From the NCBI RefSeq assembly GCF_004217095.1, contig NZ_SHKO01000001.1, positions 2,220,234 through 2,284,233 on the forward strand: a stretch of DNA of 64,000 nt, read 5' to 3'. Under the pieces are notes generated by a model. The model saw nothing but the letters and a program-made list of their open reading frames with translations, was not told where the DNA came from and searched no databases. The position numbers and the translations under genes were made by a program. Positions 14,957 through 31,241 of this stretch are shown here, in pieces (the first letter of the stretch is position 1; every line of letters starts with the position of its first letter). Source of the DNA: Advenella incenata. GTDB taxonomy: Bacteria > Pseudomonadota > Gammaproteobacteria > Burkholderiales > Burkholderiaceae_B.

Positions 14957-15787
<831 letters not shown>

Positions 15788-29412: not shown

Positions 29413-29443
29413 AATATCCCTGCTGAGGCAGGGATATTTTTTT
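29413..29443 (+). terminator. Intrinsic terminator abutting the trmH-family start codon
   Basis: Perfect 11-bp stem AATATCCCTGC (29413-29423) / GCAGGGATATT (29428-29438) with loop TGAG, then a T-tract that runs to 29443. The ATG of the next gene starts at 29444. The 3' arm contains AGGGA, 9 nt from that ATG, so terminator and ribosome binding site coincide. Confidence 0.9.
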
Positions 29444-30252: not shown

Positions 30253-31098
30253 TCAATAGGTTGCCGAGGAGTTGGATTTCAGCCCCAGGATCTGGATGAC
30301 CGTCGTGGAAATTTCCTCAATGGATTTGGTCGTCGTCGACAGCCATTCAATGCTTTCGCGTCTCATCAGGCGTTCGGCTTCGGCGACTTCATACAGACAT
30401 TGTTTGATCGACGCATATTGGCTGTCCGGGCGGCGCTCGTTGCGCACCTCGGAAAGACGGTCGGGCTGAATCGACAGGCCGAATAGCTTGTTGCGATACG
30501 GTAGAAGCGTTTTGGGCAGCGCGCCGCGCTCAAAATCCTCGGGGATCAAGGGAAAATTGGCTGCCTTGATGGCGTATTGCATGGCCAGGTAGAGACTGGT
30601 GGGGGTCTTGCCGCAGCGTGACACACCCACCAGAATGACATCGGCTTCTTTCAGGCCGTGCACGAACTGGCCGTCGTCATGCGCAAGCGTAAAATTAATG
30701 GCTTCGATACGGTTGCGATACTGTTTGGAGCTGGCGCTCAGGTGCGACAGGCCGATGGTTGGGCGCGATTTGGTTTCCAGCGCAGTTTCAAGCTGGTTGA
30801 CGCAGGCGCCGAAGATATCCAGAAAAATACAGTTCGATTGCTGCACCACGGCCAGAATTTCGGGCTTGACCAATGTACTGAACAGCAGTGGCGGCGTATT
30901 GTCAGTCAGGGCGGCCGCGTTGATTTTTTCGGCGACCTTGGCTGCTTTTTCCTCGGAAGTAATAAAAGGCTCGCGTAACAGCGTGAAATCAAAATCAGCG
31001 CTAAATTGCGACAAAACGGAGTGACTGAAGGTCTCTGCCGTGATGCCCGTGCCGTCTGATACGATGAAGACCGTCCGCTTTTTTTGTGATTCTGACAT
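30253..31098 (-). CDS. ppsR: PEP synthase regulatory protein (bifunctional kinase/pyrophosphorylase)
   Basis: DUF299-family enzyme that inactivates PEP synthase by ADP-dependent phosphorylation and reactivates it by phosphate-dependent dephosphorylation. 281 residues from ATG 31098 (E. coli PpsR is 277). N-terminal VFIVSDGTGITAETFSHSVL and the P-loop-like GVSRCGKTPTSLYLA (near 158) are diagnostic. The open frame extends 15 codons upstream without conservation. It is divergent from ppsA, its expected substrate, across 143 bp. Confidence 0.95.
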   Translation of the reverse strand: MSESQKKRTVFIVSDGTGITAETFSHSVLSQFSADFDFTLLREPFITSEEKAAKVAEKINAAALTDNTPPLLFSTLVKPEILAVVQQSNCIFLDIFGACVNQLETALETKSRPTIGLSHLSASSKQYRNRIEAINFTLAHDDGQFVHGLKEADVILVGVSRCGKTPTSLYLAMQYAIKAANFPLIPEDFERGALPKTLLPYRNKLFGLSIQPDRLSEVRNERRPDSQYASIKQCLYEVAEAERLMRRESIEWLSTTTKSIEEISTTVIQILGLKSNSSATY

Positions 31099-31171
31099 GT
31101 TCCAATTTGATCCTGTGAGTATAGAAAAAGACGGTACAATCATGGTACTTTGTACCTGGCCGATAGTTCAG

Positions 31172-31214
31172 GCTTATTTGACTAGAAAAGCGCGTATTTT
31201 CTAATCAAATAAGC
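31172..31214 (+). repeat. Near-perfect 18-bp inverted repeat before ppsA
   Basis: Arms at 31172-31189 (GCTTATTTGACTAGAAAA) and 31197-31214 (TTTTCTAATCAAATAAGC) are complementary at 17 of 18 positions, with a 7-bp centre GCGCGTA. It ends 27 bp before the ppsA ATG. It could be an operator for the divergent ppsR/ppsA pair or, if transcribed, an A/U-rich leader hairpin. A smaller repeat GGTAC-TTT-GTACC lies at 31144-31156. Confidence 0.6.
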
Positions 31215-31241
31215 TTTCATTTTAATCTAAGGGTGACTTAA

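Follow-up and report, generated by a model that had tools for sequence, protein, structure and literature searches.

The window, that is, the whole 64-kb stretch of Advenella incenata DNA analysed here, carries an inverted repeat at positions 31172-31214, upstream of the phosphoenolpyruvate (PEP) synthase gene ppsA. The features of this intergenic region are collected in Table 1. The sequence-only reading had described two 18-bp arms with one mismatch and a 7-bp centre, situated 27 bp before ppsA and between ppsR and ppsA, and all of this was confirmed: the sole arm mismatch opposes C31182 to A31204, the gap to the ppsA ATG (31242) is 27 bp, and a PF03618 protein on the minus strand and PEP synthase domains were found on the two sides. 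The repeat is also far beyond chance, as had been claimed. With a scoring of +1 per match, -2 per mismatch and loops of 3-12 bases, it reached 15, the highest value in the window, followed by runners-up of 12, while among 20 dinucleotide shuffles of the window, 19 held no score of at least 11 and one held a single 11.

Table 1. Features of the ppsR-ppsA intergenic region and its flanking genes (window positions).
Feature	Position	Strand	Basis or remark
ppsR, PEP synthase regulatory protein (kinase/pyrophosphorylase), divergent neighbour	30253..31098	-	PF03618
Probable ppsA -10 element TACAAT	31135..31140	+	Recurrence in family upstream regions
Basal stem, 5' strand AGGC	31170..31173	+	Partner strand 31213-31216; contains the kept G-U pair 31171-31215
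Hairpin 5' arm	31172..31189	+	Sequence, fold, shuffle scan
Apical loop (GCGCGTA)	31190..31196	+	Neither sequence nor length conserved among relatives
Hairpin 3' arm	31197..31214	+	Sequence, fold, covariation
3' basal strand and U-rich tract GCTTTCATTTTA, immediately 3' of the stem	31213..31224	+	T counts in relatives
ppsA ribosome-binding site AGGGTGA	31230..31236	+	Sequence; similar GGTGACT in many relatives
ppsA, phosphoenolpyruvate synthase, 788 aa	31242..33608	+	PF01326, PF00391, PF02896

When folded as RNA of the + strand, the stem extends two pairs beyond the ends of the repeat (G31171-U31215 and A31170-U31216), with a z-score of -3.60 and none of 200 shuffles folding equally well. A comparably good fold is obtained for the minus strand (z-score -3.52), the C/A mismatch becoming a G-U pair there; therefore, the window sequence by itself does not discriminate between the two strands when folded.

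Upstream regions of ppsA in the family share one layout, in which AAGGC, two variable bases and (G/A)TTTG are followed by a variable centre, CAAA(C/T), two variable bases and GCTTTC, and then by T-rich sequence, the ribosome-binding site and ATG. The named loci carrying this hairpin belong to Advenella, Pelistega, Bordetella, Achromobacter, Candidimonas and Pigmentiphaga, which we take to be Alcaligenaceae. The sequence-only reading had named absence from relatives as an outcome that would speak against the element. A covariance model built from 26 family ppsA upstream regions instead matches 219 of 268 family genomes. In an order-wide sample of 399 genomes, the model gave ten matches, nine of them in family members; the tenth was weak (E 0.0066) and lay at a place without a ppsA start. 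Inspection by eye of the ppsA upstream regions of 70 named non-family loci, among them Burkholderia, Polynucleobacter and Oxalobacteraceae, did not reveal the hairpin.

The position of the hairpin is equally regular. In all 100 loci scanned, 51 fetched via ppsA or its flank and 49 via the model, the best match lay on the ppsA strand and ended 16-24 nt before the start codon. Loci retrieved around model matches, 110 in all and partly from shared genomes, each had a ppsA start. A permissive re-search covered 18 genomes, namely the window's own and 17 with two matches listed, and returned 21 further matches, of which 17 were opposite-strand readings of a place already matched, scoring 16.7 to 33.8 bits lower. 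The remainder comprised one off-site match (E 4.9e-4) between two ORFs and three with E 0.08-0.09. That off-site match, at 501-552 of locus L250, was the only one with E < 1e-3 in the re-searched genomes, and the second of its adjoining ORFs presumably resembles ribosomal protein L13. A long inverted repeat might also be a mobile or scattered intergenic element. Its probability is negligible, given the constant company of ppsA at the fetched loci and the single copy in the window genome, where the genome-wide search that the earlier reading had called for found one occurrence both by sequence and by covariance model; a dispersed palindromic repeat was ruled out by this copy number.

In an anchored search, the hairpin was found in 137 of 144 family regions, a biased rate, as the regions were partly chosen by model match; regions sharing their last 150 bases were merged. 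Among the seven exceptions, L164 fell just under the score limit, L186 has no hairpin, and L170, L183, L185, L187 and L188 lack the anchor. The model left 49 family genomes unmatched, and 20 of these were inspected: five had no ppsA hit, and the 15 with ppsA comprised nine with an anchored hairpin (mostly with long centres), one without a hairpin, two reduced genomes with an A/T-rich hairpin and three of one genus with a different hairpin. The reduced 0.8-Mb genomes (L170 and L183) have an A/T-rich hairpin and a T run before ppsA and no AGGC foot, and one of these hairpins is under the terminator cut-off described below. The three loci of one family genus (L185, L187 and L188) carry a hairpin of another sequence, GAAATAAT ... 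ATTATTTC in L185, with a T run at about the usual place, and one of the three is above the cut-off. In L023 (1816-1977), the apical segment contains two large inverted repeats of the GGGGTCAGACCCC type, as if inserted into the loop.

The sequence-only reading had proposed that compensatory changes would favour an RNA structure and strict base conservation a protein site. Run in relatives, this comparison gave compensatory changes and thus favours RNA. In the 26 sequences, 89.2% of the cells are paired, whereas shuffles gave 76.0% and sliding the partners left no more than 54.9%; 11 of the 21 pairs are altered on both sides, compared with 8.0 in shuffles, of which 3 in 500 reach 11. One pair position reads CG in eight sequences, GC in eight, UA in five and AU in four. 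The count of further pair types in these sequences (26) did not exceed that of shuffles (26.3). For a larger alignment, fitted to the model, 50 of 150 rows from the opposite strand were left out and the remaining 100 sequences were reduced to 94 by merging identical pair patterns; 88.8% pairing was obtained across these distinct sequences. Furthermore, RNAalifold recovers 18 of the 21 pairs without a supplied structure. Along a ppsA tree, 21.2 co-changes were counted at partner columns versus 5.5 at non-partners; in 15.7 of the 21.2, one standard pair replaced another. The maximum among 2000 random permutations of the partners was 16.9 co-changes. Within the window genus itself, alignment columns 17 and 71 hold A-U in four of the ten species, U-A in three, G-C in one, C-G in one and an unpaired C/A in one.

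At the base of the stem, the pairs A-U, G-U, G-C and C-G are present in 26 of 26 sequences, and the wobble of the AGGC/GCUU foot remains G-U in 93 of 94 distinct sequences, with A-U in the remaining one. The retention of this G-U pair points to the + strand as the one that pairs. As a counterpoint, the C/A mismatch of the window would be G-U on the minus strand, although this concerns a single species. Where both strands were listed, the ppsA strand scored 12.5 to 36.1 bits above the other, with a model that was itself built on the ppsA strand. The segment between two 14-nt arm windows measures 5-130 nt among 137 family regions.

Together, the compensatory changes, the kept G-U pair and the 5-130 nt between the arms argue for an RNA hairpin and against a DNA operator. 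The RNA stem among the options of the sequence-only reading is thereby upheld as a structure, whereas its double operator or regulator site is disfavoured by the variable segment. A binding site for a transcription factor would suit a palindrome beside a promoter-like element, between a regulator and its target. However, neither fixed half-site spacing nor base conservation was found, the inner arms are compensated and the wobble is kept, so that this possibility is largely refuted and highly improbable. A family-wide RNA hairpin on the ppsA strand, preserved by compensatory change, is well supported by these alignments.

The sequence between the hairpin and ppsR suggests how it could be transcribed. 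Of 139 upstream regions from the family, 136 have TACAAT or TATAAT somewhere ahead of the hairpin, and in 79 of these 136 it precedes the hairpin foot by 36-42 nt. No -35 consensus emerged among 113 aligned family regions, and the TACAAT of the window was absent from the output of a simple promoter scan. If this TACAAT is the -10 element, transcription would start near 31146-31148, approximately 25 nt before the window hairpin, which would then be transcribed as part of the ppsA mRNA. Since the stem lies downstream of a conserved -10-like element and upstream of the ribosome-binding site, we conclude that it is very probably a leader hairpin of this mRNA. A relative of PpsR is encoded divergently upstream in all 95 family loci that have at least 900 nt of upstream sequence; therefore, no co-directional neighbour is present that would need a terminator here. 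In a search by eye for a leader peptide, ATG 31142 was rejected as a start, for it lies between the -10-like element and the expected transcription start and, being upstream of the latter, would stay untranscribed from there.

The same outline of a promoter-like element, a short leader, a hairpin and a U tract is that of a small regulatory RNA, which might arise from the ppsA 5' UTR, end at the hairpin and act elsewhere. Parts of the leader are indeed alike across several genera. Against this, the leader preceding the hairpin differs greatly between genera when the list is read by eye, and ppsA is not mentioned, according to a word search, in the body text of a paper on the Hfq interactome of Bordetella pertussis. 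Such a small RNA seems unlikely.

Immediately 3' of the stem, a U-rich tract recurs throughout the family. In 138 of 138 family regions, the third base after the stem GC is T, the first two T being set by the search anchor, and the eight bases after GC contain four to eight T. These regions were scored on a terminator scale of the d-score type (cut-off 0). When the best of four anchored stem ends was taken, 122 of 138 family regions passed, as did 8 of 10 in the window genus. An unanchored scan of 60 of the 138 regions gave 38 passes, whereas two of the 60 shuffles and one of the 60 reverse strands passed. Outside the family, passes in the unanchored scan numbered 3 among 69 loci, compared with 2 among their 69 shuffles and 10 when the reverse strands were scanned. 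The window copy itself scores -1.7, just under the cut-off. Two ordinary-looking strong intrinsic terminators between ORFs of the window, at 29415-29436 and 14981-15002, served as a yardstick and score 28.3 and 46.0. The hairpin was therefore not filed as an intrinsic terminator; the favoured reading is that it functions in the manner of a weak attenuator.

We propose that the hairpin and the U-rich tract may form a weak, conditional terminator that controls ppsA in cis. A share of the transcripts would end in the U-rich tract while others would continue into ppsA, and the ratio between ended and read-through transcripts would be set by conditions or by some factor. The terminator-like family regions, whether counted with or without the anchor, speak for this step, while the sub-threshold window copy, its A/U-rich stem, its U tract interrupted by CA and an invariant GGC that exceeds what a terminator needs speak against it. 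We tentatively regard attenuation as the leading mechanism.

A structure that does not terminate transcription is a close rival, if somewhat less probable than attenuation. The hairpin could shield the mRNA against decay, present the ribosome-binding site or be bound by an RNA-binding protein, with the U-rich tract serving as a translation enhancer. The invariant AGGC/GCUU foot and the window score below the cut-off fit such a function in translation or mRNA stability, as does the predicted fold of the window leader, in which the stem leaves the ribosome-binding site uncovered. T-rich stretches 15-40 nt before the start are present in 90 of 138 family regions and likewise in 32 of 67 ppsA loci outside the family (33 of 68 when L186, the family locus without a hairpin, is included), compared with 10% in shuffles and 12 of 49 in ppsR controls. 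Because these stretches are also frequent outside the family, where the hairpin was not seen, a role in translation stays a strong rival. Two observations speak against this alternative: the U tract immediately adjoins the stem, whereas the hairpin-ATG spacing is variable, and terminator-like scores in the family far exceed those of shuffles.

An attenuator might be countered if the early leader paired with the GGC foot. The combination CCAGC/GCTGG looked attractive by eye in several genera, but after near-identical leaders were merged, 7 of 78 leaders reached p < 0.1, without excess over shuffles, and 45 of 78 lay above the shuffled mean. This antiterminator was rejected, a result that counts against attenuation.

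A second leader element was found in many genera of the family, where an early-leader AGUC(A/G)CC is complementary to the ribosome-binding site GGUGACU. Leaders without a -10 match in range were excluded, which kept 128 of 137 for this comparison (the same exclusion applied to the -35 and antiterminator tests). At least six exact complementary bases were present in 76 of the 128, and 51 of the 128 gave p < 0.05 against 100 shuffles each, close relatives being counted repeatedly in both numbers. AGTC(A/G)CC is kept while its neighbours differ in 12 of 12 leaders, which were chosen for having it; examples with AGTC(A/G)CC or GTCACC include L008, L009, L018-L023, L034-L036 and L103. In many relatives outside the window genus, this sequence could pair with the ribosome-binding site in addition to the attenuator step. 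None of the ten window-genus leaders reached p < 0.05, so the complementary sequence is not part of the window element, and the pairing was rejected for the window itself (p 0.80).

Such pairing around the hairpin is also what a ligand-sensing riboswitch hiding the ribosome-binding site would display, and the complementarity counts and its retention in the selected leaders lend this idea some weight. On the other side stand the window genus, where the pairing is not significant, an early leader that in many cases, including the window, spans only about 25-30 nt from the expected start to the hairpin, and the leaders read by eye, in which a conserved unpaired core was not seen. We consider a riboswitch very unlikely, slightly more so than the small RNA.

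Beyond the family, another arm pair of the TTGTGCAAG ... CTTGCACAA type was noticed within 150 nt before ppsA in Burkholderia, Paraburkholderia and Caballeronia (L045, L046, L055, L060, L061, L063, L065, L067, L068, L071, L072, L078 and L079). Judged by eye, its arms seem to covary. Leaders of ppsA may therefore have gained hairpins more than once.

Taken as a whole, a ppsA leader hairpin acting as a weak, conditional attenuator is the best explanation overall, put forward with some reserve. The hairpin probably tunes the amount of PEP synthase made. A wider reading, in which an undescribed RNA family would sense the state of central carbon and set PEP synthase output in the Alcaligenaceae by a conditional terminator, joined in many genera by masking of the ribosome-binding site, is doubtful. 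Gluconeogenesis from pyruvate begins with PEP synthase, an enzyme under the control of the PpsR protein. A family-wide RNA element would add control of ppsA at the RNA level in a group that includes Bordetella and Achromobacter, and it would do so with a compact, single-copy hairpin.

The ppsA hairpin very probably belongs to the structured leader RNAs and is without an Rfam 15 match. In the 64-kb window, no Rfam 15 family reached its gathering score; in the loci of eight relatives, three matches were obtained, all far below gathering scores and none overlapping the hairpin, and one of the three (L022 1224-1297) lies upstream of it. Titles and the beginnings of abstracts in the open-licence literature yielded no ppsA leader RNA, which is not proof of its being unpublished, and word searches of PMC2965389, PMC2864571 and PMC12235514 returned no ppsA.

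Intrinsic terminators acting as attenuators in 5' leaders have been surveyed across genomes (PMC2965389). Like these, the ppsA element consists of a hairpin with a U-rich tract immediately behind it, located ahead of the coding sequence, and the gene upstream of it is divergent rather than co-directional. Unlike them, the window hairpin combines a long, A/U-rich stem with an interrupted U tract and scores below the cut-off, and neither an antiterminator nor a ligand site was found at the ppsA leader, where leader peptides were sought by eye. Regulators of the same metabolic area are known elsewhere. In enterobacteria, Cra/FruR controls ppsA. The Vibrio sRNA Vsr217, derived from the malK 5' UTR, targets gluconeogenesis according to the title of its report (PMC8265627). 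The hairpin described here shares this metabolic area with Vsr217 and Cra/FruR and differs from both as a cis element within the ppsA leader itself.
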